From Cellulomonas sp. P24 (GTDB taxonomy: Bacteria; Actinomycetota; Actinomycetes; Actinomycetales; Cellulomonadaceae), in contig NZ_JAJDFX010000002.1 in NCBI RefSeq assembly GCF_024704385.1, forward strand, positions 806,001 to 870,000: DNA of 64,000 bases, in the 5' to 3' direction. Below the pieces are notes generated by a model. It had not been told where the DNA came from and ran no database searches. It worked only from the letters and a program-made list of their open reading frames with translations. Of this stretch, positions 9,234-50,506 are shown piece after piece (positions within the stretch are counted from its first letter, which is position 1; every line of letters starts with the position of its first letter). The position numbers and the translations under genes are program-made.

Positions 9234-11066
9234 ATGCGGGATCATGCGGTCATGAACCACCTCGTGGCGGGACCTCCGGGGCACGTGATCGTGCACGGGC
9301 TCGAAGGCCTCGGCCTGCGGGTCGTCGAGCACCTCGTCGCGCTGGGGCTGGAGGTCGTCGCCGTCGACGACGGCGCCCGACCGGGTGCCGTGCAGGCTGC
9401 GAGCGCCCTGGGGGCGACCGTCGTCCCGCACCACGACGGCGCCGCCGCCGCGCTCGGCGCCGCGGGTCTTCGCGACGCGCGCGCGGTCGTCTGCCTGTCC
9501 TCGACCGACCTCGGGGCGCTGGAGACCGCGTTGCTCGCGCGTCGCCTCCGTCCGGAGCTGACGGTCGTCGCGCAGATCCGCAACCAGGCCGTCGCCCGTG
9601 CGGTGCGCGCCGACGCCGGCATCCTGGTGCTCGACGTCGCGACCATCGCGTCGCCCGCGATCGTCGAGGCGTACCTCGGCGAGCGGGGGCACGGGCTACG
9701 GATCGCCGACGAGGTCGTCCAGGTGCGCACGGTCGCGGCACCGCGGGACGGCCTGCTGCGGGACCTGTTCGGCGAGGTCCTCGTCCCGTTGTCCGTGCAG
9801 CGGACCGACGGGACGAGCGATCCGGTCGTCTGCCCCGGACGCGATCTCGAGGTGCATGCAGGCGACGCGGTGAGCCTGCTCGGTCCGGCCGCCACCTGGG
9901 ACGAGGTCGTCCCGTCGACCCGGACGCCGGTCCCGCCGGCGTCCGCGAGGCGGTCGGCGGGTCAGCCGCGTGGCGAGCACGGCCCGTCCGGCGCGGTGCG
10001 GCGATGGGGCCGGGCCGTCGCGCGGGCCACCGACACCCGGTTGCGGCGTGCGCTGGCGACGCTGCTCGGTCTCGGGCTGACCTCGATCATCGTGCTGATG
10101 GCGGGCTACCGCGAGGCGGACGGCACGAGGATGACCCCGCTCGACGCCCTGTACTTCACCGCGGAGACCATCGGCACGATCGGCTACGGCGACTTCAGCT
10201 TCCGTGCCCAGCCGAGCTGGCTGCGGGCCTACGCCGTGCTCCTCATGCTCGCGGGCGCGGTCCTCGCGGCCCTCGTGTACGCCCTCCTGACCAACCTGCT
10301 CGTCTCGCAGCGCCTGCAGGAGTCGCTCGGCCACGGACAGGTCACCGATCTGCGCGGGCACGTGATCGTCGTCGGTCTCGGGTCGGTCGGGGTGCGCGTG
10401 GTCGAGTCGGTGACGGCGACCGGGGTGCCCGTCGTGGTCGTGGAGACGGACGAGACCAACCGGTACCTGGCACAGGTGCGTGGGCTGGGCGCGAAGGTCG
10501 TCCTCGGTGACGCCACCCTCGCCCGCACCCTCGAGCTCGTGAACCTCGACCGGGCGCGGGCCGTGGCCGTGCTGACGTCCGACGACCTGACGAACCTCGA
10601 GGTCGCGCTCGCGGTGCGCGACTGGCTCGGCGAACGCACCGACGTCCCGGTCGCGCTGCGGCTCGCCGACCGGCGGCTCGCGTCCACCGTGCGGCAGGCG
10701 TTCGGCTTCACGCACGTGCGCTCCACCGACGAGCTCGCGGCGCCGTGGTTCGTCGGCGCGACCCTCGGGCTGGAGGTCCTCGGCACGTTCTTCGCCGGCG
10801 ACGTCCCCCTGCTCTACGCGCGCGTCCAGGTCACCCCCGGCGGGGGCCTGGACGGCGCCCGTCTCGACGCCCTCACCGGGCGCAACCGCGTGCTGTCGGT
10901 ACGCCACAGCGGTGAGCACGAGGTGCACCGCGTCGTCCGACGGTGGACGACGCTCCAGGCGGACGACGAGGCGTTCGTCGTCGGACCGCATGACGAGCTG
11001 CTCGGCCTGCTCCGCCAGGACGCGCTGCCACCCGCCCGGCGCCCCGGCGCACCGACGGGCCCCTGA
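9234..11066 (+). CDS. Potassium channel with two RCK (TrkA-N) domains
   Basis: About 610 aa. Residues about 9-230 form an N-terminal Rossmann/RCK unit ('HVIVHGLEGLGLRVVEHL', then a TrkA-C-like part). Next come a first membrane helix (LATLLGLGLTSIIVLMAG), a pore with the selectivity filter TIGYGD, and a second helix (LLMLAGAVLAALVYALL). A second RCK unit follows with the canonical GLGSVG nucleotide loop. One subunit thus has one pore, so a tetramer is expected in the plasma membrane, gated by nucleotide or ions through the RCK ring. RCK before the pore is unusual. Starts at 9234 or 9252 are both possible; neither has a strong ribosome binding site. Confidence 0.88.
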   Translation: MRDHAVMNHLVAGPPGHVIVHGLEGLGLRVVEHLVALGLEVVAVDDGARPGAVQAASALGATVVPHHDGAAAALGAAGLRDARAVVCLSSTDLGALETALLARRLRPELTVVAQIRNQAVARAVRADAGILVLDVATIASPAIVEAYLGERGHGLRIADEVVQVRTVAAPRDGLLRDLFGEVLVPLSVQRTDGTSDPVVCPGRDLEVHAGDAVSLLGPAATWDEVVPSTRTPVPPASARRSAGQPRGEHGPSGAVRRWGRAVARATDTRLRRALATLLGLGLTSIIVLMAGYREADGTRMTPLDALYFTAETIGTIGYGDFSFRAQPSWLRAYAVLLMLAGAVLAALVYALLTNLLVSQRLQESLGHGQVTDLRGHVIVVGLGSVGVRVVESVTATGVPVVVVETDETNRYLAQVRGLGAKVVLGDATLARTLELVNLDRARAVAVLTSDDLTNLEVALAVRDWLGERTDVPVALRLADRRLASTVRQAFGFTHVRSTDELAAPWFVGATLGLEVLGTFFAGDVPLLYARVQVTPGGGLDGARLDALTGRNRVLSVRHSGEHEVHRVVRRWTTLQADDEAFVVGPHDELLGLLRQDALPPARRPGAPTGP

Positions 11067-37841: not shown

Positions 37842-40004
37842 GTGGCTCGACCAGGCCGACGCCGGTCCGGCGGTGCACGCACGGACGCCGTCACCCAGCG
37901 CCGCAGCGCCCCCCGTGCCGCCGCCCGACGACCCGACGAGCAAGGGCTCATCCCGGTGCTCGCCGAGGTCGCCCACGACGTCGACAACGCGGTGCGCCGC
38001 CCGCCGACGCGCCCGACGGTTCGCGCGAAGTTCCAGGCCGTGGCGCTGCTCGTCCGCGAGGAGCGCGCTCGGGTGCGGGCCGACACGACCATCACCGAGT
38101 CCCGACGGACCCAACAGCTGCGTCGTCTCGACGGGGTGGCGACGCTGCTGGCCAAGACCGCCGCCCGGGACACCTCGCTGCTCGGTCTGCTCGCCGACGA
38201 CGCCCGGGTCTCCGACGCGGCCCGCGCCTTCAAGGCGACCGTGATGCGTGCCGGCGGCCTGGAACCGCCCGAGGAGCCCGCCCCCGCCGAACCGCCCGCG
38301 CCGACGCCCGGCTCCACGGGCCAGGTGGTGCCCCGGTCGGTGATCTCACGCCAGCTCGCGAACCCGTTCCTGGCCCCCGACTTCGAGGCCGCTGCTGAGC
38401 GGATCGCCGCCCGACCCCGGCTGCTGGCCGGCTGGGAGCTCCTCGAACCGCTCTTCCGGTCCTTCGAGTACGGCACCACCGGCACACCCGCCTGCATGCC
38501 GCTGCCCCGGGCCACCTCGGTGTCCGCTCCCCACGGCCGGGTGCTGATGCCGCACCAGGCCCAGGTCGTCGCGGCGACGGCCGCCGGTCACCGCACGTTC
38601 CTGCTCGCCGACGAGCCCGGGCTCGGCAAGACCGCCCAGGCCCTGCTCGCCGCACAAGCCGCCGACGCCTACCCGCTCCTGGTCGTGGCGCCCAACGTCG
38701 TGAAGACGAACTGGGCGCACGAGGTCGGGCTGTGGACCCCGAACCGCCGGCCCACCGTGGTCCACGGTGACGGCGACGAGGTCGACGGGTTCGCGGACAT
38801 CGTGATCGTGAACTACGAGCTCCTCGACCGGCACGTCGGCTGGCTCGGCAGTCTCGGGTTCCGGGGCATGGTCGTCGACGAGGCGCACTTCATCAAGAAC
38901 AAGGGCTCCCAGCGCTCCCAGCACGTCCTCGCGCTCTCGGAGCGAATCCGTGCCCGCACTGCCCGCCCACTGCTGATGGCACTCACCGGGACCCCGCTGA
39001 TCAACGACATCGAGGACTTCCGCGCGATCTGGCAGTTCCTCGGCTGGATCGACGACAAGATGCCGCTCGGCCGGTTGATGGCCGCGCTCGAGGAGAACGG
39101 GCTCACCCCCGCCGACCCCGGGTTCTACACCGCCGCCCGGACCAGCGTGATCGACATGGGCATCGTGCGTCGCCGCAAGGTCGACGTGGTCGCCGACATC
39201 CCCGCCCGCCGCGTGGCCGACCTGCCGGTCGAGCTCGACGGGGCCGTCGGCCGCTCGATCCGCGAGGCCGAGGCCGAGCTCGCCCGCACGCTGGTCCACC
39301 GCTACCGGTCCGCCCTGGAGGTCCGGACGACGAGCGAGGTCGTCGACGGCATCGACCACGAGCTCGTGCGCCGGGTGGCGGCCGGGGCGCTCAAGGAGTC
39401 GAAGGCGCAGACCGGCGGCGAGAACGTGTTCACGATGGTCCGGCGGATCGGCCAGGCCAAGGCCGGGCTGGCCGCCGACTACGCCGCGCAGCTCGCCCGC
39501 AACGTCGGCAAGGTGGTGTTCTTCGCCAAGCACATCGACGTCATGGACCAGGCCGAACGTACGTTCGCCCAGCGCGGCATCCGCTACGCCTCGATCCGCG
39601 GCGACCAGACGCCCAAGGTCCGCGCCAAGAACATCGCCGCGTTCGTGGACGACCCCGACGTGGCGATCGTCGTGTGCTCCCTGACGGCTGCCGGCGTGGG
39701 GCTGAACCTGCAGGTCGCGTCGAACCTGGTGCTGGCCGAGCTGTCCTGGACCGATGCCGAGCAGACCCAGGCCATCGACCGGATCCACCGGATCGGCCAG
39801 TCCGAGCCCGTCACCGCATGGCGGGTCATCGCCGCGCAGACCATCGACAGCCGGATCGCCGAGCTGATCGACAGCAAGTCGGGGCTGGCCGCCCGGTCGC
39901 TCGACGGCGCGCTCGACGAGGACGCGTCGGGGTCCACGGACGTGCAGCTCGAAGCGCTGGTCGGGCTGCTCACCGACGCGCTCGTCGCCGAGGGCGTGGG
40001 CTGA
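37842..40004 (+). CDS. SNF2-family DEAD-box-like helicase/translocase
   Basis: A 720-aa protein. A basic, low-complexity N-terminus (1-35) and an approximately 200-residue alpha-helical domain precede the SF2 core. Motif I is 'LADEPGLGKTAQALL', motif II is 'VVDEAHFIKNK', motif III is 'LMALTGTPLIN', motifs V/VI are 'AAGVGLNLQ' and 'QTQAIDRIHRIGQ'. The two-lobe layout and short linker resemble the SMARCAL1-like branch. It should be a double-stranded DNA translocase. GTG 37842 follows AAGGAGGAG closely. Together with the next gene (70 bp away, same strand) it forms a two-helicase operon. Confidence 0.88.
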   Translation: MARPGRRRSGGARTDAVTQRRSAPRAAARRPDEQGLIPVLAEVAHDVDNAVRRPPTRPTVRAKFQAVALLVREERARVRADTTITESRRTQQLRRLDGVATLLAKTAARDTSLLGLLADDARVSDAARAFKATVMRAGGLEPPEEPAPAEPPAPTPGSTGQVVPRSVISRQLANPFLAPDFEAAAERIAARPRLLAGWELLEPLFRSFEYGTTGTPACMPLPRATSVSAPHGRVLMPHQAQVVAATAAGHRTFLLADEPGLGKTAQALLAAQAADAYPLLVVAPNVVKTNWAHEVGLWTPNRRPTVVHGDGDEVDGFADIVIVNYELLDRHVGWLGSLGFRGMVVDEAHFIKNKGSQRSQHVLALSERIRARTARPLLMALTGTPLINDIEDFRAIWQFLGWIDDKMPLGRLMAALEENGLTPADPGFYTAARTSVIDMGIVRRRKVDVVADIPARRVADLPVELDGAVGRSIREAEAELARTLVHRYRSALEVRTTSEVVDGIDHELVRRVAAGALKESKAQTGGENVFTMVRRIGQAKAGLAADYAAQLARNVGKVVFFAKHIDVMDQAERTFAQRGIRYASIRGDQTPKVRAKNIAAFVDDPDVAIVVCSLTAAGVGLNLQVASNLVLAELSWTDAEQTQAIDRIHRIGQSEPVTAWRVIAAQTIDSRIAELIDSKSGLAARSLDGALDEDASGSTDVQLEALVGLLTDALVAEGVG

Positions 40005-40074
40005 CGCCGTTCCGCCTCGGTACGGTGCTCACGTACAGCGCCGCGCACGCTGACTCAGGATCTCGGGGGTGATC

Positions 40075-42486
40075 ATGACGGCCACGCCGATCACCCTCAC
40101 GGACGAGTTCACGCGCGCGTTGGCGCTGCTCGACTCGGGGTGCAACTTGTTCCTCACCGGCAAGGCCGGTACGGGCAAGTCGACGCTCATCCGGCACTTC
40201 ATGGCGACCACGGGGAGGCGCGTCGTCGTCGCCGCGCCGACCGGGATCGCGGCGCTCAACGTGGACGGCTACACGATCCACCGGCTGTTCAGCTTCGGGA
40301 CCACGACGAGCCTCGCCGACGTGCTGGAGGGCCGCTACCGCCCCGGTCGGTTCGCCGCGACCCTCGCCGCCCTGGACACCCTCATCCTCGACGAGGCGTC
40401 GATGGTCCGCGCCGACCTGTTCGACATGCTCGTCGCCGCCCTGGAGCGGTTCGGTCCCCGGCCCGGGACGCGGTTCGGCGGGGTGCAGGTGGTCCTGGTC
40501 GGCGACCTCTTCCAGCTCCCGCCGGTCACCACCGAGCGGGAGAAGACGTTCTTCGAGACCCGGTATGCCACGCCGTACTTCTTCTCCGCCGACCGGTTCT
40601 CCCGCGAGGACTTCCCGACGGTCGCGCTCACCACGGTGTTCCGGCAGCTCGGAGACCAGCGCCTGACCCGCCTGCTCAACGCCGTGCGGGAGGGCGTCCT
40701 GGTCGAGCGGGCCCGGGCAGAGCTCAACTCCCGGACCGACCCGGACTTCGAGCCGCCCGACGACGAGTTCTGGCTCACGCTCGCGCCGACCAACCGGGTC
40801 GTCACCGCACGCAACCGTCGCCAGCTGGACCGTCTCCCCGGCGAGGCGGTGGTCCACCACGCCGTCGAGCGCGGCGACCTGAGCCTCTTCGATCCCCCGG
40901 TCGAGCGGACGCTCGAGCTCAAGGTCGGCGCGCAGATCATGATGCTCACCAACGACTCCGCCGATCGCTGGGTCAACGGCACGCTCGGTCGGGTGGTGGA
41001 CCTCTGGCACGATCGCGACGGCCTGGGGATCGAGGTCGAGTTCCGCGACTCGACGACGGCGGAGGTGCGGCCCTACACCTGGGACGCGACCCGCCCGGTG
41101 CCCGAGGGCGGGACCCTGCGGCGAGAGGTCGTCGGCAGCTACACCCAGCTCCCCCTCAAGCTCGCGTGGGCGATCACCATCCACAAGAGCCAGGGGCAGA
41201 CGCTGGACCGCCTGGTCGTGGACCTGCGTGGCGGGGCGTTCGACTACGGGCAGGTGTACGTCGCGCTGAGCCGGTGCACCTCCATGGACGGACTGGTGCT
41301 GACCCGCCCCGTCCTCCCCAAGGACCTCAAGACCGACCGGCGGATCCTGCGCTTCCTGCAGGCGGTGACCGCACCCGAGCAGGCCGCTCGGCGGTGTGCC
41401 CTCGGTATCCTCACGGTCGGCATGGACGGTCGGATGTCCCGGCCACGCCCGGTGGAGATCGCGGTGGCATTCGACGACGGGTCCGCGATCAGCACGCTCG
41501 TGAACCCTCAACGTGACCTCGACGACGCCCGCAGCGCCTTCGGGATCTCCGTGGACGACGTGCTCCTGGCCCCGACGCTCGCGGAGGCGTGGTCGGCGAT
41601 CGCGCCGCTGCTGGACGGCTGCACGCCGGTGGGGTCGGGGATCGACGAGGCCCTGGGGCTCGTCGACTTCGAGCTCAAGCGGCTCGGGTCGGTCGCACCG
41701 CTGCCGATCGGCGTCGAGCTCCCCGCCGGGGCGCTGACACGCGAGGACCTCTGGGGGCTGTCGGGCCCGACGGCGTTGACCCGGGCCCGCGCGGCGATGG
41801 AGGTGCTGAGGCGCGACGACCTCGACACGTCGGGCGGCACGACCTTCGACGTCAGCGGCATGGACGACGAGGGCGGCTCCGCCGTGGACGTCGCGTACCT
41901 GCTCACCAGGGATGTCGAGGTCCGCCCGCCTGCGAGCGCGACGATGCCCACCCTCTCGGCGCTCATGGACACCAGCCGCCTGCTGAGCGGGGTGCTCCTC
42001 GCCGGCGACGTGCCCGCACCGCCGGCCGAGGTGACATCCGATGCGACGGTGGCGGACGTCGTACGCGGGGTCGTGGCCGAGCGTCTCGTGGCGGCTGCGG
42101 CGCGGACGACGGGACTGCCCGCCGCGCTGCTCGAGCGACTGCGTCGGCTGGAGGACGTGCTCGGGATCGGAGTGGTCGACGCGATCCTTGCCGGGATGGC
42201 GGCCGAGCAGGGCTCCCTGGCGGAGGCACTCCCCTCGGGTGCCCGGGTCTGCTTCACCGGCACCGCCGTCGACCCAGCCGGCCGGATCTGGGCCCGAGAG
42301 GAGATGAACGCCGCTGCCGCAGCCCGCGGACTCGTTCCCGTGGGCACGGTCACGAAGACGAGGTGCGACGTCCTCGTCGTCGCCGAGGTCGGCACGCAGT
42401 CCGGCAAGGCGCGGAAGGCGAAGGAGCTCGGCAAGCCGGTGTTCTCGGCGGACGAGTTCTTCGCGTGGCTCGCTGACGGGGCGTGA
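40075..42486 (+). CDS. Pif1/RecD-like helicase fused to a DnaQ-like segment and a BRCT domain
   Basis: About 803 aa. The SF1 helicase core (about 1-400) has Walker A 'LTGKAGTGKSTLIRHF', Walker B 'LILDEASMVRADL', 'VVLVGDLFQLPPV' and the C-terminal motifs 'AITIHKSQGQTLDRLVVDL' and 'QVYVALSRCTSMDGLVL'. Residues about 440-545 read like a DnaQ exonuclease ('RPVEIAVAFDDGS', 'LVNPQRDL', 'FGISVDDVLLAPTLAEAW'), but the metal-binding acidic residues are missing. Residues about 715-803 are BRCT-like ('ARVCFTGTAVDP', 'VTKTRCDVLVVAE', 'KPVFSADEFFAWL'). It unwinds DNA by inference. ATG 40075 is preferred to GTG 40069. Confidence 0.85.
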   Translation: MTATPITLTDEFTRALALLDSGCNLFLTGKAGTGKSTLIRHFMATTGRRVVVAAPTGIAALNVDGYTIHRLFSFGTTTSLADVLEGRYRPGRFAATLAALDTLILDEASMVRADLFDMLVAALERFGPRPGTRFGGVQVVLVGDLFQLPPVTTEREKTFFETRYATPYFFSADRFSREDFPTVALTTVFRQLGDQRLTRLLNAVREGVLVERARAELNSRTDPDFEPPDDEFWLTLAPTNRVVTARNRRQLDRLPGEAVVHHAVERGDLSLFDPPVERTLELKVGAQIMMLTNDSADRWVNGTLGRVVDLWHDRDGLGIEVEFRDSTTAEVRPYTWDATRPVPEGGTLRREVVGSYTQLPLKLAWAITIHKSQGQTLDRLVVDLRGGAFDYGQVYVALSRCTSMDGLVLTRPVLPKDLKTDRRILRFLQAVTAPEQAARRCALGILTVGMDGRMSRPRPVEIAVAFDDGSAISTLVNPQRDLDDARSAFGISVDDVLLAPTLAEAWSAIAPLLDGCTPVGSGIDEALGLVDFELKRLGSVAPLPIGVELPAGALTREDLWGLSGPTALTRARAAMEVLRRDDLDTSGGTTFDVSGMDDEGGSAVDVAYLLTRDVEVRPPASATMPTLSALMDTSRLLSGVLLAGDVPAPPAEVTSDATVADVVRGVVAERLVAAAARTTGLPAALLERLRRLEDVLGIGVVDAILAGMAAEQGSLAEALPSGARVCFTGTAVDPAGRIWAREEMNAAAAARGLVPVGTVTKTRCDVLVVAEVGTQSGKARKAKELGKPVFSADEFFAWLADGA

Positions 42487-43640: not shown

Positions 43641-46214
43641 TCAGAGTCGGGGGTCGATCGGCTCCGACTCCAGGGCGAGGATCGCGAAGACGGCCTCGTG
43701 TACCCGCCAGATCGGCTCTCCCGCGATGAATCGCTCGAGCGCTTCCTGGCCGAGGGCGTACTCGCGCAGGGCGAGGGATCGCTTGTGGCCGAGGTTGCGG
43801 GATCGCAGCCGCTCGAGGTTGGCCGGCTCCGTGTAGTCGGGGCCGTAGATGATCCGCAGGTACTCGCGTCCGCGGACCTTCACGCCCGGCTGCACCAGCC
43901 GGCGACGGCCCGCGACGAGGTTGTCCACGGGCTTGACCACCATCCCCTCTCCCCCTGCCCCGGTGAGGCTCTCCCACCACTCGACACCGGCCGCGACCGA
44001 GTCGTCGTCGGCGACGTCGACGACCAGGCGACGCGTGGTCTGCAGCAGCCCGGTGGGGTCGGCGGCCACCAGGCGGTCGGCGACGTCCAGGTGCCACAGG
44101 TGGCTTCGGTCAGCGAACGTGGCACCCTCGGCGGCGAGCAGCTGGAACGGGGCCAGGCGGACACCGTCGAGCCCGTCCACCGACCAGACGTAGCGGCGGT
44201 AGGCCTCGACGAACTTGTCGGCGTTCTCCGAGCGGGAGCGCGTCCGGCGAAGCAGGTCATCCACCGGCAGGCCCGCGGCCGCCGCAGCCTCCAGGGCCGA
44301 GACGGCGGCGGGCAGTGCCGTGCGGGCCGCGGCACCCACGCTCGCGTACTGCGTGCGCAGCAGATCCTCGGCCTTGACCGACCAGGGCATCAGCTCGCAG
44401 TCGAGCAGCAACCAGCCGGCCTCGCTGCCGTTGCCCGACACGCTCCACAGGCCTGCTGCGGTCACGGCGTCGCGGACGACGGCGAGGAGCTTCTCGGTGA
44501 GCTCCGGGCCGAAGAACGGCCGCCCCGTTCGGGTGTGCACCACGCCGGTGACACCGTCGGGCATGGCGAAGGTTCCCGCAGCCGTGGCGCGGTCCCGGCA
44601 CACGAGCACCGTGGCACGCGAGCCCATGTGCTTCTCCTCGCACACCACCCGCTCGATACCGTCGGCCCGGTAGTGCGCGAATGCCTCCCGGGGGTGCTCG
44701 AGCAGATCTCCGTCGGGCGCGGTGGCGCACGGGCTCATGGTGGGCGGCAGGTACAGGAGCCAACGCGGGTCGACCGCGAACCGGCTCATCACCTCGAGCG
44801 CACCGACCGCGTTCGCCTCGGCGACGGTGACCCGACCGTGGTGGCGGGTCTCGACGATCCGCTTGCCCAAGACGTCGGTGACATCAAGCACGTCCGGGTC
44901 ACGGCGCCCACCTGCGCCGGCCTCGTCGCCTGCCGGGGGGAACGGCCGGGCAGGCTCGTACCAGACCCGCTCGGCGGGAACCTGGACGATCTCCTTCTCC
45001 GGGTATCGCAGCGCGGTCAGGTGCCCACCGAAGACGCACCCGGTGTCCAGGCACATCGTGTTGTTGACCCAGGTCGTGACCGGGGTCGGCGTATGGCCGT
45101 AGAGCACCACGGCTCGCCCCCGGTACTCCTCCGCCCACGGGAGCCGGACGGGCAGCCCATACTCGTCGGTCTCACCGGTGGTGTCCCCATACAGCGCGAA
45201 GCTCCTGACCCGGCTCGAGGCCCGCCCATGGAAGGCTTCCTTGAGGCCGGCGTGCGCAACGACGAGCCGGCCGTCGTCGAGCACCAGGTGAGCCACCAGC
45301 CCGTCGCAGAACTCCCGCACGACCCGCCGGAACTCGTCGGGCTCACCTGCCAGCTGGGCAAGGGTCTCGCCCAGACCATGGGAGACCTGCACCTGCCGAC
45401 CGTCGAGCGCGCGCACGAGCTTGTTCTCATGGTTGCCGGGCACCGCGAGCGCGTGACCCGCCCCGACCATTCCCATGACGAGGCGCAGCACGCCGGGCGA
45501 GTCCGGGCCGCGGTCGACGAGGTCGCCGAGGAAGAGTGCGCGGCGCCCCTCCGGGTGGCGGGCGTCGACCGGGCGGCCGGCGTCATCACGTACGACGGCG
45601 TAGCCCAGTGCGACCAGGAGCGTCTCCAGCTCGCTTCGGCAGCCGTGCACGTCGCCGATCACGTCGAACGGCCCGTGGTCGTCGCGGTGGTTGCTGCGCA
45701 AGGGGGTGCGCACGATCGTCGCGGCAGCGACCTCCTCACCGGCGCTGAGCACGTGGACCGTGCGGAACCCTTCCCGGCCCAGGGACCGGAGCGAACGGCG
45801 CAGCTGCTGATGCTGTCGGCGGATCACGTGCGTGCCCAGGTCGCGGTCTGTACGGCCCGCGTTCCGCTCGAGACACACGTCCTCGGGCAGGTCCAGGACG
45901 ACGGCGACCGGCAGCGCGTCGTGCTCACGTGCAAGGGTGACCAGGCTCTTGCGTGCTTCCGGCTGCACGTTCGTGGCGTCCACGACGGTGAGCAGCCCGG
46001 CGTCGAGCCGCTTGCCGACGATGACGTGCAGCACCTCGAAGGCGGCCTTGGTCGCGGCCTGCGAGTTCTCGTCGTTGGACACGAGACCGCGGCAGAAGTC
46101 GCTCGAGATCACCTCGAACCGGCCGAAGTGGCGGGCCGCGAACGTCGACTTCCCGGATCCGGACACCCCGACCAGGACGACGAGGGACAGCTCCGGGATC
46201 GTCAGCGCGCTCAT
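43641..46214 (-). CDS. pnkp: Polynucleotide kinase-phosphatase-ligase Pnkp (RNA repair)
   Basis: An 857-aa three-domain protein, the length of Clostridium thermocellum Pnkp (870 aa). The kinase (about 1-190) has P-loop '[17 protein letters not shown]' and 'VVDATNVQPEARK'. The binuclear metallophosphatase (about 195-470) has 'DVIGDVHGCRSE', 'FLGDLVDRGPDSPG', 'VPGNHENK' and 'LYGHTPTP'. The adenylyltransferase/ligase part (about 490-857) has nucleophile Lys in 'CEEKHMGSRATVLV' and 'EGMVVKPVDN'. In the known system it heals 5'-OH and 2',3'-cyclic phosphate RNA ends and, with Hen1, seals them. ATG 46214 overlaps the hen1 stop (ATGA), so the two are translated together. Confidence 0.95.
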   Translation of the reverse strand: MSALTIPELSLVVLVGVSGSGKSTFAARHFGRFEVISSDFCRGLVSNDENSQAATKAAFEVLHVIVGKRLDAGLLTVVDATNVQPEARKSLVTLAREHDALPVAVVLDLPEDVCLERNAGRTDRDLGTHVIRRQHQQLRRSLRSLGREGFRTVHVLSAGEEVAAATIVRTPLRSNHRDDHGPFDVIGDVHGCRSELETLLVALGYAVVRDDAGRPVDARHPEGRRALFLGDLVDRGPDSPGVLRLVMGMVGAGHALAVPGNHENKLVRALDGRQVQVSHGLGETLAQLAGEPDEFRRVVREFCDGLVAHLVLDDGRLVVAHAGLKEAFHGRASSRVRSFALYGDTTGETDEYGLPVRLPWAEEYRGRAVVLYGHTPTPVTTWVNNTMCLDTGCVFGGHLTALRYPEKEIVQVPAERVWYEPARPFPPAGDEAGAGGRRDPDVLDVTDVLGKRIVETRHHGRVTVAEANAVGALEVMSRFAVDPRWLLYLPPTMSPCATAPDGDLLEHPREAFAHYRADGIERVVCEEKHMGSRATVLVCRDRATAAGTFAMPDGVTGVVHTRTGRPFFGPELTEKLLAVVRDAVTAAGLWSVSGNGSEAGWLLLDCELMPWSVKAEDLLRTQYASVGAAARTALPAAVSALEAAAAAGLPVDDLLRRTRSRSENADKFVEAYRRYVWSVDGLDGVRLAPFQLLAAEGATFADRSHLWHLDVADRLVAADPTGLLQTTRRLVVDVADDDSVAAGVEWWESLTGAGGEGMVVKPVDNLVAGRRRLVQPGVKVRGREYLRIIYGPDYTEPANLERLRSRNLGHKRSLALREYALGQEALERFIAGEPIWRVHEAVFAILALESEPIDPRL

Positions 46215-47758
46215 GAGCTCACCGGTGAGGCCGGTACGGCATCGGGTGCAGCGGCAACGCCGGAGGACGCACCGGCATCGACTGCCACGTCGTCGCGGGT
46301 GAACACCGCCATCTGCGTGGGAGGGCCGACCTCGCCGTCCTCGGCGCCCACCGGCCGGAATACGACCGTGTAGCCGTACATGCGAGCCCCGGCCTCGGCC
46401 CACTCTCGGAACTGCGCGCGGTCCCACTCGAACCGGTGGTCATGGTGCCGCACCGTCCCCGCACGGAGGGCGGGGAACCGCACGTTGTACTCCGCGTTCG
46501 GGGTGGTGACGATCAGCGTGCGGGGGCGAGCGTGGCCGAGCACCGCTCGTTCGAGCGCCGGGAGCCGTGGCGGGTCGACGTGCTCGATGACCTCCATGAG
46601 CACCGCCGCGTCGAAGCCGGCGACCCGGGCGTCCCGGTAGGTGACGGACGACTGCACCAGCTCGATCCGACGCCGCTTGACCTCCGGCAGGCTCTCCAGG
46701 TGCAGCCGTCGGGTGGCGAGCTGCAGAGCCCGGAACGACACGTCGACCCCGAGGAGGCGCTCGTACGTCCGGTCGCCCAGAAGTGCAGACAGGAGGGTTC
46801 CCTCACCGCAGCCCAGGTCGACGACGGAGCGTGCGCCCGACTCGGCGATAGCTGCCAGCACGGCGTCGAGGCGTCGGTGCGCGAGCGGCACGGGTGGAGC
46901 GTCGGGTTGCCCGGCGGCGGAGTCGCTGAGGGCGGCGTCCACGCCGACCGGTGACGCGGCGTCAGCCGTCGACCCGTCCGGGACGACGACGGCATCATCG
47001 AGGGCTTCAGAGAGAACGTCGTCCACGTCGGCAAGGCGTTCGAGCGCCGAGGTCGCGAGACCGCGCTGGTTGGCGAGGTACCGATGCACGATGCGCTCAC
47101 GGTCCGGGTGCGTGGCCAACCAGCCCTCGCCTGCACGCATCAGCTTGTCGATCTCCTCGTGCCCGACCCAGTAGTGCTTGTCGGCGTCCAGGGCAGGGAG
47201 CAGGACATAGAGATGACTGAGCGCGTCGGACAACCGCAGAGTGCCGGAGAGTCGCAGGTCGACGTACCGGGAGTCGCCCCAGCGGGGGATCTCCGGGTCG
47301 AGCGGAACCGGTGTCGCATCGACCTGCCAGCCGAGCGGGGCGAACATCTGTTCCGCGACGGCCGCGCCGCCACGGCACGAGACCGCCGGCGCGTGGATCT
47401 CCAACGGGATCGCACATCCAGGAAGCTCGGGACGCGCGTCGCACCGTCCGGCGATCGCCGTCCGATACACCCGGCCGAGAGCGACAGCCAACATCGACGA
47501 CGCGGCGTACGGCCGGTCGTTGACGTACTGCGCCAGACTGAAACCCGCCCGCTGGTCCCCGGACCTGCCGCGGACCAGGGCGATCGGGTCCACCTCGAGA
47601 AGCAGGGCCGCGGTGCAGCGCTCCTCGGTCGCCTCGGGGTAGAAGACGTAGGCCGTACCCACCGAGAGCTCGAACGACTGGACCTTGCCAGGATGCTTGT
47701 GAAGTAGGAAGCCGAGATCCGTCGCCGACGGCGCGGTCGACGTCACGGTGAGCAGCAT
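46211..47758 (-). CDS. hen1: 3'-terminal RNA ribose 2'-O-methyltransferase Hen1
   Basis: A 515-aa protein. The N-terminal half (from 'SATDLGFLLHKHPGKVQSFE') is the bacterial Hen1 domain that binds and activates Pnkp ligase. The C-terminal half is the SAM methyltransferase, with 'VVDLGCGEGTLLSALLG', 'AVLMEVIEHVDPPRL' and 'VRHHDHRFEWDRAQF'. The Glu-x-x-His and His-His pattern needed for metal-assisted 2'-O-methylation is present. It methylates the repaired 3' end so the junction resists being cut again. The start is set at ATG 47758; ATG 47764 is also in frame. It is the first gene of the repair operon and divergent from the NTPase. Confidence 0.95.
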   Translation of the reverse strand: MLLTVTSTAPSATDLGFLLHKHPGKVQSFELSVGTAYVFYPEATEERCTAALLLEVDPIALVRGRSGDQRAGFSLAQYVNDRPYAASSMLAVALGRVYRTAIAGRCDARPELPGCAIPLEIHAPAVSCRGGAAVAEQMFAPLGWQVDATPVPLDPEIPRWGDSRYVDLRLSGTLRLSDALSHLYVLLPALDADKHYWVGHEEIDKLMRAGEGWLATHPDRERIVHRYLANQRGLATSALERLADVDDVLSEALDDAVVVPDGSTADAASPVGVDAALSDSAAGQPDAPPVPLAHRRLDAVLAAIAESGARSVVDLGCGEGTLLSALLGDRTYERLLGVDVSFRALQLATRRLHLESLPEVKRRRIELVQSSVTYRDARVAGFDAAVLMEVIEHVDPPRLPALERAVLGHARPRTLIVTTPNAEYNVRFPALRAGTVRHHDHRFEWDRAQFREWAEAGARMYGYTVVFRPVGAEDGEVGPPTQMAVFTRDDVAVDAGASSGVAAAPDAVPASPVSS

Positions 47759-47908
47759 GTCCATGATCCTGCCACCGTGAGCCGCCAACGAGCTCGGCTT
47801 CTGAACATCGCGTTCAGAGGCGTCTTCGCGCGGTAACCCCGTCGAACCAGCAAGATCGCCCGCTTCCTGTGGTATCCATGACTTACGCTACCCAGTTGGA
47901 GAATCGCC
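47759..47908. promoter_or_regulatory. Shared divergent promoter region, hen1 and NTPase
   Basis: A 150-bp gap lies between the two start codons. It is the only place for both promoters and includes an AT-richer patch (47865-47905). No clear operator palindrome is seen. Joint placement suggests coordinated or mutually exclusive expression, but this is inference. Confidence 0.4.
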
Positions 47909-50506
47909 ATGGATCAGACTCCGAATTTCCTCCCAACCCAGCGCATGCTGGAACGGGTCGAGATCGCACGCAGCGACTCCGATACTGCGTACTTCTTCGA
48001 ACTGCTCTACCTCGGGGAGTTCACGATCAAGCTCATCACGGTGGAACTTCTCGCGGGCCTCCGGGATGACCGAGATCGGCAGCGGTACGCGCTGGAACAC
48101 AGACTCGTGCGTGCCGACGGAATCGGCGCGTGGGCTGAGATCGTAGATGAAGCCCTGACTGGCCCCGCCAGTCAACATTTTGTACCCGACGCACGGGATT
48201 CGCAGACCGCCATCGCGATGACGTTCGGTCCCGGTGACGGCAGTTGGCAACGTCGAGCCGTAGATCACCTCAATGCTGCGTGTCGGTACCTTGAGCCCAC
48301 CTATGGCGACACATCTGCACTAAAGGTCTCTTTGAGGAACTGGATCAGAGATTTCGTGTGGCTGCGCAACCGTACTCGCGGCCACGGTTCCCCGAAACCA
48401 GAAATGCTCTCCACGCTAAGTCCGCGACTCCAGGAATCCCTCGATGCGGTACTGAACGGCTCGCCGACCTTCTCCCGATCGTGGGTGCACCTGAAGCGCG
48501 GACTATCCGGCAAGTACCGAGTGACGCGCTTCGGCGGCGACCGATCACCATTCGCGCATCTCGCCGCAGAGGCCGATCACCAACTCGCGGACGGCATCTA
48601 TGTGGCCCAAGGCGAGCCGAGACGGGTGCAACTACTTTTCACAGATGCCGATCTGACCGACTTCTTTGTGCCAAACGGAGCCTTCCGTGGTGACGTCTTC
48701 GAGGCGGTCTCATATGTTACGGACGATCGTCGGTCGATACCAGGTGCCAGTTGGCTACTGCCCGCGGACGCTGAGCCGCCGAGCGAGACCGCTGCATATC
48801 CGGGACTTGAGGTCGTAGGCGAATCGTTCACAAATATGCCACCACGGCGAAGTGGATACATTTCCCGCCCCACACTCGAATCCGAGTTGGACTCAGTGCT
48901 CTGCGATGATCGGCATCCCGTGATCACGCTCCACGGGCGTGGCGGGGTGGGCAAGACATCGATGGCACTGGAGGTTCTCCACAGAATCGCCGAAGTGAGC
49001 GAGTTCTCTGCGATCGTCTGGTTCAGCGCCCGTGACATTGACCTCCTCCCGGACGGACCTAAGGTCGTTCGCGCGGACGTCCTCTCGATCGACGATATTG
49101 CACGGGACTTCGCTCGACTCCTTACTGGGGCAAAGCCCAAGATCTCCGATGCTCGTCGACTTATAACAGCTGCGCTATCTGGCACGTCCGCGGATGGCCC
49201 GTATCTCTTCGTCTTCGATAACTTTGAAACCATTCGCGCTCAGGGCGAACTCTACGCATATCTGTCAAACGCCGTGCGATTGCCAAACAAAGTGCTCATC
49301 ACAACCCGCAGCCGAGACTTCAAGGCAGACTACCCTGTCGAGGTCGGCGGGATGGCCCGGGAGGAGTACCAACTCCTCGTGCAGGACGTGGCTGGACGGC
49401 TGGGGATATCAAGTCTTCTCGACGAAGAGTACAAAGAGCGCCTATACGAAGAGTCCGATGGACACCCCTATATCACGAAGGTCCTTCTCGGCGAAGTGGC
49501 CCACGCAGGACGAAAGGTCGCATTCAAGCCGGTTGTGGCGACGAAGGCTGCGGTTCTTGACGCGCTATTCGATCGCTCTTTTGCCTCCCTCTCGCTTGCC
49601 GGAAAGCGCGTGTTCCTGACCTTGTGCAGCTGGCGGTCGCTTGTGCCCCGTATTGGCCTGGAGGCGGTACTATTGCGCCCGGGCAACGAGCGATTTGATA
49701 TAGATGCAGCCGTCGCCGAACTGGCGCAAGCATCCCTAATTGAGGAGGTGTGGTCCGAGGAGGACTCTTCGTCATTCCTTTCGGTACCGCTCGCGGCCGC
49801 CGTCTTCGGAAAGAGGAAGCTGGTTGCTTCGCCTCTTAAGATCGCCGTTGAGGCCGATATTGATCTCCTTCACAGCTTCGGAGCGGCGACAGCTGGAGAA
49901 GTTGCGGCCGGATTGGGCCCGCGAGTTGACCGTCTCGCCAAGGTGGTCGCCCAGCGAATCGCCGAGGGCGCGAATCGAGATCAGGAGCTCGCGGTGGTTC
50001 AGTATATTGCCACTGCGTACCCAAAGGCATGGCTGAATGTTGCTCAGATCGAGGAGGACGGCGGCAATCTTGCAGAGGCGGCCGCGTCAGTACGGCGCTA
50101 TCTGGAAGCAAGGCCGGATGACGAAAGCGGGTGGCGCAAGCTTGCGCAGTTGTGTCGCGCGGCAGGGGATTCGCTCGGCGAGGTGAGCGCGCGCATTGAG
50201 TTGGCCGAAAGAGCGAGTACGGACTTCTATGACTTAAGCATGGCTGCTCAGCGACTCAACTACCTTCTGTCGACCAAAGAAGTGAGTCTTGAGGCCGACG
50301 AGCGGCTCATGGCGGTGGGCCGGCTTCGGCTCGTCATCGAGGCGCGGTGGCGCGAGGCCGATGCTACCGACCTTTCGCGACTGGCGTGGCTGTGCATGCA
50401 CGACCACGATCTCGAAGGTGCGAGGCACTGGGCCTCAGTTGGACTCGAGTCGGAGCCGGACAACGAGCACTGCCGTCGACTCGTTGAGCGACTCACGAGT
50501 TCGTAG
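47909..50506 (+). CDS. STAND-type NTPase with HEPN-like N-terminal region and TPR-like C-terminus
   Basis: An 865-aa protein. Residues 1-320 are a helical effector-like region with Arg153-x5-His159 ('WLRNRTRGHG'), the spacing of HEPN ribonuclease active sites. Residues about 320-600 form an NB-ARC/AAA-like NTPase: Walker A 'GRGGVGKTS' (343-351), Walker B 'YLFVFDNFE' and sensor 'VLITTRSRD'. After a winged-helix-like part, residues about 700-860 have TPR-type helix pairs ('NLAEAAASVRRYLEARPDD'). This is the effector-switch-sensor plan of anti-phage STAND proteins. It has lower GC, with TTA and ATA codons, unlike host genes. An RNase role is inference from the motif. Confidence 0.75.
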   Translation: MDQTPNFLPTQRMLERVEIARSDSDTAYFFELLYLGEFTIKLITVELLAGLRDDRDRQRYALEHRLVRADGIGAWAEIVDEALTGPASQHFVPDARDSQTAIAMTFGPGDGSWQRRAVDHLNAACRYLEPTYGDTSALKVSLRNWIRDFVWLRNRTRGHGSPKPEMLSTLSPRLQESLDAVLNGSPTFSRSWVHLKRGLSGKYRVTRFGGDRSPFAHLAAEADHQLADGIYVAQGEPRRVQLLFTDADLTDFFVPNGAFRGDVFEAVSYVTDDRRSIPGASWLLPADAEPPSETAAYPGLEVVGESFTNMPPRRSGYISRPTLESELDSVLCDDRHPVITLHGRGGVGKTSMALEVLHRIAEVSEFSAIVWFSARDIDLLPDGPKVVRADVLSIDDIARDFARLLTGAKPKISDARRLITAALSGTSADGPYLFVFDNFETIRAQGELYAYLSNAVRLPNKVLITTRSRDFKADYPVEVGGMAREEYQLLVQDVAGRLGISSLLDEEYKERLYEESDGHPYITKVLLGEVAHAGRKVAFKPVVATKAAVLDALFDRSFASLSLAGKRVFLTLCSWRSLVPRIGLEAVLLRPGNERFDIDAAVAELAQASLIEEVWSEEDSSSFLSVPLAAAVFGKRKLVASPLKIAVEADIDLLHSFGAATAGEVAAGLGPRVDRLAKVVAQRIAEGANRDQELAVVQYIATAYPKAWLNVAQIEEDGGNLAEAAASVRRYLEARPDDESGWRKLAQLCRAAGDSLGEVSARIELAERASTDFYDLSMAAQRLNYLLSTKEVSLEADERLMAVGRLRLVIEARWREADATDLSRLAWLCMHDHDLEGARHWASVGLESEPDNEHCRRLVERLTSS

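Follow-up and report, generated by a model that had tools for sequence, protein, structure and literature searches.

Little is known about the role of Pif1 helicases in bacteria (PMC9964779). Bacterial Pif1 proteins share an SF1B core. Some consist of this core only, while others, such as DdPif1, SsPif1 and TePif1, also have a WYL domain as a C-terminal accessory domain, and in TePif1 it binds the 5′ end of single-stranded DNA (PMC9964779). The terms "BRCT" and "exonuclease" are absent from the main text of that paper. A 5′–3′ helicase and a DnaQ-fold domain are described in one chain in SaDinG of S. aureus (PMC12345164). The DnaQ-H domain of Maelstrom, a eukaryotic piRNA factor, is described as having lost its DEDHD set and kept the fold (PMC2628886). 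The PRK06063-like proteins, which match the model PDC-S48, are built from a DnaQ domain, a helical region and a BRCT domain.

We analyzed a 64,000-nucleotide stretch of DNA from Cellulomonas sp. P24 (the window), which encodes a Pif1-family helicase with a DnaQ-like and BRCT-like tail. The core is shared with the bacterial Pif1s (E=3e-109). In place of the WYL domain found in some of them, the protein has a DnaQ-like domain, predicted to be dead, and a BRCT-like domain, and the fused cores branch apart. A WYL domain was not found in the window tail (Pfam, E≤10) or in 71 tails of the family, window included (E≤0.01). Like SaDinG, the protein has a helicase and a DnaQ fold in one chain; in SaDinG, however, the helicase belongs to SF2, the exonuclease is N-terminal and live, and no BRCT is among the domains described (PMC12345164). 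As in Maelstrom, the catalytic set is lost and the fold is kept, but Maelstrom conserves other residues and has no helicase (PMC2628886). The tail is homologous throughout to the PRK06063-like proteins, which, unlike the fusion, stand alone without a helicase and have an intact catalytic set. The sequence-only reading did not know this fusion as a described system. Among the literature matches listed, from a search with most subscription journals outside its scope, we likewise found no description of a Pif1–DnaQ–BRCT fusion, and the term "PDC-S48" did not occur in the ten papers of one such listing. Numbers with L and G denote loci and genomes, respectively.

Overall architecture and the helicase core

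The open reading frame (ORF) runs on the forward strand from an ATG at 40075 to 42486 and encodes 803 amino acids; a GTG at 40069 is an alternative start and gives 805. The parts of the protein follow one another in the order of Table 1. The ORF is genuine, with relatives at many loci, mostly of full length (80 of 114 kept), which are actinobacterial by the 80 titles listed. The model of the full-length protein has a pLDDT of 86.8. The tail (residues 419–803), modeled with AF2 from a 71-row alignment, has a mean pLDDT of 91.8 and a pTM of 0.89. This alignment (A1) comprises the window and 70 loci with a tail of at least 330 amino acids and mutual identity below 90%, drawn from 78 loci with an ORF. 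The fusion of helicase, DnaQ-like and BRCT-like parts proposed from the letters is thus real.

Table 1. Parts of the fusion gene, with positions in the window.
Feature	Residues	Position	Strand	Basis
Pif1-family SF1B helicase core	1–415	40075..41319	+	Pfam PIF1, PDB Pif1 chains, motif residues
DnaQ-fold domain, predicted to be catalytically dead	437–587	41383..41835	+	Model, VIA-align, hhalign, residue counts
Helical linker	588–716	41836..42222	+	Model; alignment with stand-alone DnaQ-BRCT proteins
BRCT-like domain	717–803	42223..42483	+	Identity to L104, PRK06063, Pfam in relatives
Stop codon		42484..42486	+	ORF reading

The helicase core matches the Pfam family PF05970 (PIF1) with E=1.3e-23 (84.3 bits against a cut-off of 25.9), and solved Pif1 helicases in the PDB match residues 7–443 with E down to 3.2e-109. 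Among these chains, 8bns scores best and probably represents a thermophile Pif1 described in PMC9964779. All the motifs are present in the window protein (Walker A GKAGTGKST, DEAS, GDLFQLPPV, VFRQ, TIHKSQGQT and VALSR), and the SF1 motif residues are nearly all invariant in 40 aligned sequences, window included. The complete Pif1/RecD-like core claimed in the sequence-only reading is therefore borne out. From family membership and the intact motifs, the core is predicted to unwind DNA in the 5′–3′ direction.

An SNF2-type helicase gene (37842–40004, + strand) has the same orientation as the fusion gene and ends 64–70 bases before its start. A conserved operon of the two was rejected, as this SNF2 gene is absent from the 25 largest flank-ORF clusters, which span 7 to 81 loci. 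None of the window neighbors is found in these 25 clusters, made over 81 loci, where the window is represented only by the fusion gene itself and its overlapping frames. Downstream lies a Pnkp–Hen1 RNA-repair pair (43644–47788, − strand) consisting of Pnkp with kinase, phosphatase and ligase (PF16542, 1e-179) and Hen1 (PF12623, 6e-115). Adjoining this pair is an NB-ARC plus TPR protein (47909–50503, + strand), which may be a STAND NTPase belonging to a defence system.

The DnaQ-like domain and its lost active site

A Foldseek search with the tail model gave 13 matches at E≤0.001, each to a bacterial or human chain with a DnaQ-fold exonuclease domain. VIA-align gave a Z score of 14.2 to 8h2f and 2gui, the DnaQ domain of S. 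thermophilus and the epsilon subunit of E. coli, over 145–146 residues with an rmsd of 2.7–2.8 Å. Model residues 19–169 correspond to protein residues 437–587. The VIA-align rows listed span model residues 16–174 only and are silent on folds elsewhere in the tail. The structures 9ii8 and 8zef, which provide the comparison with SaDinG, are among the top fold matches. A search of PDB sequences with the tail profile gave chance matches only, and the link of the tail to DnaQ in the PDB is therefore by fold alone. Residues 440–545 had been read as DnaQ-patterned; the fold is as proposed, whereas the domain is longer, at about 437–587.

Compared profile against profile in hhalign, the domain matches the live DnaQ-BRCT exonucleases with 98.4% and E=4e-15 over 140 columns. 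Matches to single exonucleases of its own genome are weak (0.7% and 14.8%). Pfam RNase_T matches none of the 71 tails at E≤0.01. In an RNase_T search of the window's own genome, the fusion is absent from the matches listed, and three other RNase_T loci are present. The fold, the profile and the whole-length homology rule out an accidental pattern match in the middle region.

The positions of the DEDDh set (D, E, D, H, D) are occupied in the window protein by G444, L446, A526, P565 and R570, so that none of the five catalytic residues is kept. In a joint sequence alignment of 71 + 37 fusion-type tails and 27 stand-alone exonuclease-BRCT proteins, 101 of the 108 tails have none of the five residues and 7 have one, and the set is complete in 27 of the 27 stand-alones, which were selected for similarity to the tail profile, irrespective of their active site. 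The 108 tails are not all independent, because the rows include repeats (L086 and L145 are one gene; the pairs L029/L112 and L073/L116 each seem to come from a single genome) as well as L141, which has no helicase; frames of 400 amino acids or less, and so L144, were excluded. A live fusion as an intermediate was rejected, as none is found among the 108 tails.

The missing acidic metal ligands had already been noticed from the letters, and the alignment agrees. Two findings had been named in advance as speaking against a dead DnaQ-like domain. A lack of any DnaQ fold match is excluded by Foldseek and VIA-align on the tail model, and the sequence alignment to live relatives showed no intact DEDD set. 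From the loss of all five catalytic residues we infer that the DnaQ-like domain of the fusion has no nuclease activity.

Scaffold residues are common to the fusions and the live family (R458, N477-P478, D481, A499-P500, E533 and A567). Another set is conserved in the fusions only (P457, P459, L498, L502, W506, G520, D524, D531 and K535), and this pattern suggests a new surface on the predicted dead domain.

The linker and the BRCT-like domain

The linker is the least conserved part of the tail. It aligns with a central helical region of the stand-alone proteins that is possibly TerB-like; the TerB profile gave E=0.0079 in one stand-alone only, below the cut-off.

Across 87 columns, the BRCT-like domain shares 47% identity with the corresponding BRCT region in the stand-alone protein L104. 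NCBIfam PRK06063 (NF004719) matches the window protein at residues 717–800 only (E=5e-4), with 19 bits, and does not reach its cut-off of 389 bits. The window tail has no Pfam family at E≤10 and hence no BRCT match. Among the 71 tails, 5 match Pfam BRCT at E≤0.01, and only BRCT models match the tails at that E value; L086 is just over the Pfam cut-off (21.6 against 21.3). The BRCT-like C-terminus of the earlier reading is therefore weak in the window sequence itself and clearer through the relatives. T728-G729 and S776-x-K778 are conserved in the domain, and we take them to resemble the BRCT phosphate pocket.

Stand-alone relatives and the origin of the tail

When the tail profile was run against the phylum sample, it also matched helicase-less ORFs, mostly of about 370–480 amino acids. 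Those inspected have a DnaQ domain at the start and a BRCT-like region at the end. RNase_T was matched at E≤1e-19 in the five that were checked (L104, L087, L105, L088 and L106). All 6 stand-alones scanned against NCBIfam have PRK06063 ("DEDDh family exonuclease") as their top model, and because only L095 (479 bits) passes its cut-off, we call the group PRK06063-like. A C-terminal CxxC...CxxC zinc-ribbon-like motif is seen in some stand-alones (L088, L205, L206 and L207).

In a BLAST search of the window's genome with L104, the fusion tail is the top match, with 33% identity over residues 8–380 of 386 and E=1e-22. The next match is confined to the exonuclease part (residues 6–166), and this search found no second protein in the genome that matches L104 over both DnaQ and BRCT. 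Profile against profile, the whole tail matches the stand-alones with 100% over 346 columns (hhalign). Since BLAST and profile homology run from end to end, the tail is related to a whole exonuclease-BRCT protein and not merely to a DnaQ-like patch. The link to actinobacterial DnaQ-BRCT proteins had been suggested before, and it is stronger than was stated.

One branch with an SH-aLRT support of 83 splits 90 fused helicase cores from 21 unfused actinobacterial Pif1s. The latter are the loci with an ORF found by the filter among 25 fetched, and "WYL" or "core" was assigned to them by length; those inspected are core-only or have a WYL-like tail as read from the sequence, and L186 has a longer, seemingly non-WYL tail. 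A second tree separates 28 of the 108 tails from the 27 stand-alones with a support of 100. Both trees are quick and midpoint-rooted and carry long-branch warnings, so that a single origin fits but is not proved. One fusion event is most likely.

Distribution and selection

In the phylum sample, Pif1 was found at E≤1e-40 in 32 of 396 genomes, and 5 of those 32 have the fusion. In the window's order, 33 of 297 genomes carry the full fusion, in addition to a frame-broken copy (G560) and a copy with a decayed tail (G517). The genus of G392, placed as mycobacterial by its position beside named mycobacteria in the tree, has the fusion in 74 of 248 genomes, one of them frame-broken (G745, with the break in the BRCT region); here a full tail match in an open frame of at least 755 amino acids at E≤1e-20, instead of 0.001, was counted as a fusion. 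The full architecture is present in Mycobacteriaceae, Cellulomonadaceae, Dietziaceae, Brachybacterium, Demequina and others. The spread, which had been proposed as a check, thus covers many actinobacterial families and is patchy even inside single genera.

The predicted dead fusion and a live stand-alone occur together in at least two genomes, G474 and G901. A further fusion-bearing genome, G679, has a second BRCT match. The BRCT domain is mostly gone from the fusion L142 (G517). At L141 (2262–3826, − strand; G584), the ORF of a dead-type tail without a helicase lies beside an overlapping short ORF that resembles an internally deleted live DnaQ-BRCT gene. This arrangement could possibly reflect an exchange between the fusion-tail and live DnaQ-BRCT families.

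A plasmid gene was rejected as the source: 25 plasmid records match, none over 80% of the query, and the matches of the 20 listed lie within residues 4–460. A phage gene was rejected as well: search patterns from the helicase part picked up 344 viral contigs, and in the best 80 of these the match stops at or before residue 467. A tail of 51% identity is present at 9942–10988 of a 24-kb unverified "Bacteriophage sp." faecal scaffold (L289, MT835623.1), which is perhaps bacterial DNA filed as phage.

Over 21 disjoint locus pairs of 80–97% identity, the median dN/dS is 0.097 for the helicase, 0.154 for the DnaQ-like domain, 0.238 for the linker and 0.133 for the BRCT-like domain; the value of 0.81 for BRCT in the pair of the window and L002 is an artefact of a contig end. 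The DnaQ-like domain is under purifying selection and behaves as a working part.

Function of the tail

We consider it probable that the protein is a Pif1-family 5′–3′ helicase with a captured exonuclease-BRCT protein that has been stripped of catalysis and now serves as a targeting or regulatory tail. A whole actinobacterial DEDDh exonuclease-BRCT protein would have been captured as the C-terminal half of a Pif1, and catalysis would have been lost afterwards. The helicase core would unwind DNA, and the DnaQ-like domain would cut nothing and yet stay under selection. The BRCT-like domain may anchor the motor to DNA ends or junctions, for instance at 5′-phosphate nicks, gaps or flaps, or may dock it to a partner protein instead. 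Docking on DNA ends is proposed by analogy with RFC, whose isolated BRCT domain is reported to favor 5′-phosphate DNA (PMC9293009). The acidic DnaQ-like domain would then be a rigid protein-docking or gating domain and not a DNA cutter. The median net charge of −5 for this domain would fit protein docking and that of +1.5 for BRCT would fit DNA docking, but charge cannot separate docking from DNA binding because the same domain in the live stand-alones is equally acidic (median −6). As the tail has decayed in some lineages (L142 and L141), it is not required everywhere, and the patchy presence argues against a core replication role. For Candida Pif1, an own 3′–5′ exonuclease activity of the helicase core has been reported (PMC5316945), so that the whole protein may still have nuclease activity even with a dead DnaQ-like domain.

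The same decay could be taken to mean that the tail is a leftover of the fusion, kept only for solubility or stability, and the broken reading frame of G745, within BRCT, also points that way. We regard this as quite improbable, with a dN/dS of about 0.15 in the DnaQ-like domain over the 21 pairs, residues that are invariant in 71 to 108 rows, and a full architecture retained across several families and genera. Still further from probable is that the domain gained another catalytic set after losing DEDDh and is an enzyme to this day. An active-site switch on the DnaQ fold has been proposed for Maelstrom (PMC2628886), and the fusion-specific acidic residues D524 and D531 lie beside the old second motif. 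However, the other invariant acidic residues, E461, D481 and E533, are also invariant in the 12 stand-alones of alignment A5 and are therefore inherited, and inspection of the sequence by eye gave no new His/Cys/Asp cluster.

An accessory anti-phage or conflict protein, that is, a defence helicase that would use its dead nuclease domain to sense invading DNA or dock on it, is in our view unlikely. The exonuclease-BRCT ancestor family is the PADLOC phage-defence candidate PDC-S48, matched by seven stand-alone relatives with E from 1e-74 to 1e-169. Six of these seven cover nearly the whole model in one stretch and L095 in two; the fusion does not, and its best match is in the helical-BRCT part (positions 276–406 of 411), with one further stretch. 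Patchy distribution would suit a defence gene, and some neighborhoods would too. In L029 (300–12295, Isoptericola sp. BMS4), the fusion stands in a defence-island setting between a type I restriction HsdR gene and Fic and HEC-01A-like genes; a Fic protein was found in the control set too. Other flank matches are a GmrSD-like protein (L004, the locus of the Actinotalea fermentans orthologue), AbiEi (L003), PDC-S06 (L045) and PDC-S01 (L046), and in the window the Pnkp–Hen1 pair and the STAND-like NTPase begin less than 6 kb from the fusion gene. Among the 25 flank Pfam families listed, however, most are metabolic or transport families, and the 25 largest flank-ORF clusters include no neighbor from the window.

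At E≤1e-20, 73 PADLOC models were matched in 132 flank proteins of 18 loci (133 called, less the fusion itself, L009). The control, 132 proteins taken from 18 stretches in 13 genomes with the fusion, matched 10 models; 28 of its original 160 proteins, mostly short, had been left out by eye and not at random. Counting models overstates the signal, as 7 proteins at 5 loci account for 41 of the 73 and one protein for 20; these 7 are the matching members of ten flank proteins that were chosen by eye and scanned singly. Viral matches that end by residue 467 (best 80 contigs) and plasmid records that fall short of 80% of the protein also speak against a conflict role. We treat the excess of PADLOC models in the flanks as a lead and not as evidence of function, and a link to phage defence as possible but weak. 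A more specific variant, in which a PDC-S48-type nuclease was domesticated as a dead sensor or decoy on Pif1, is slightly less likely again. Such a helicase might recognise DNA ends that are foreign or damaged and leave them uncut, or might guard the live exonuclease from phage inhibitors.

Conclusion

The protein carries a built-in accessory module whose relatives persist as live enzymes, and it would thus offer a clean test of a dead proofreading-type domain on a helicase. It would also be a bacterial example of a DnaQ domain that outlasted its catalytic function, with the live family at hand for comparison.
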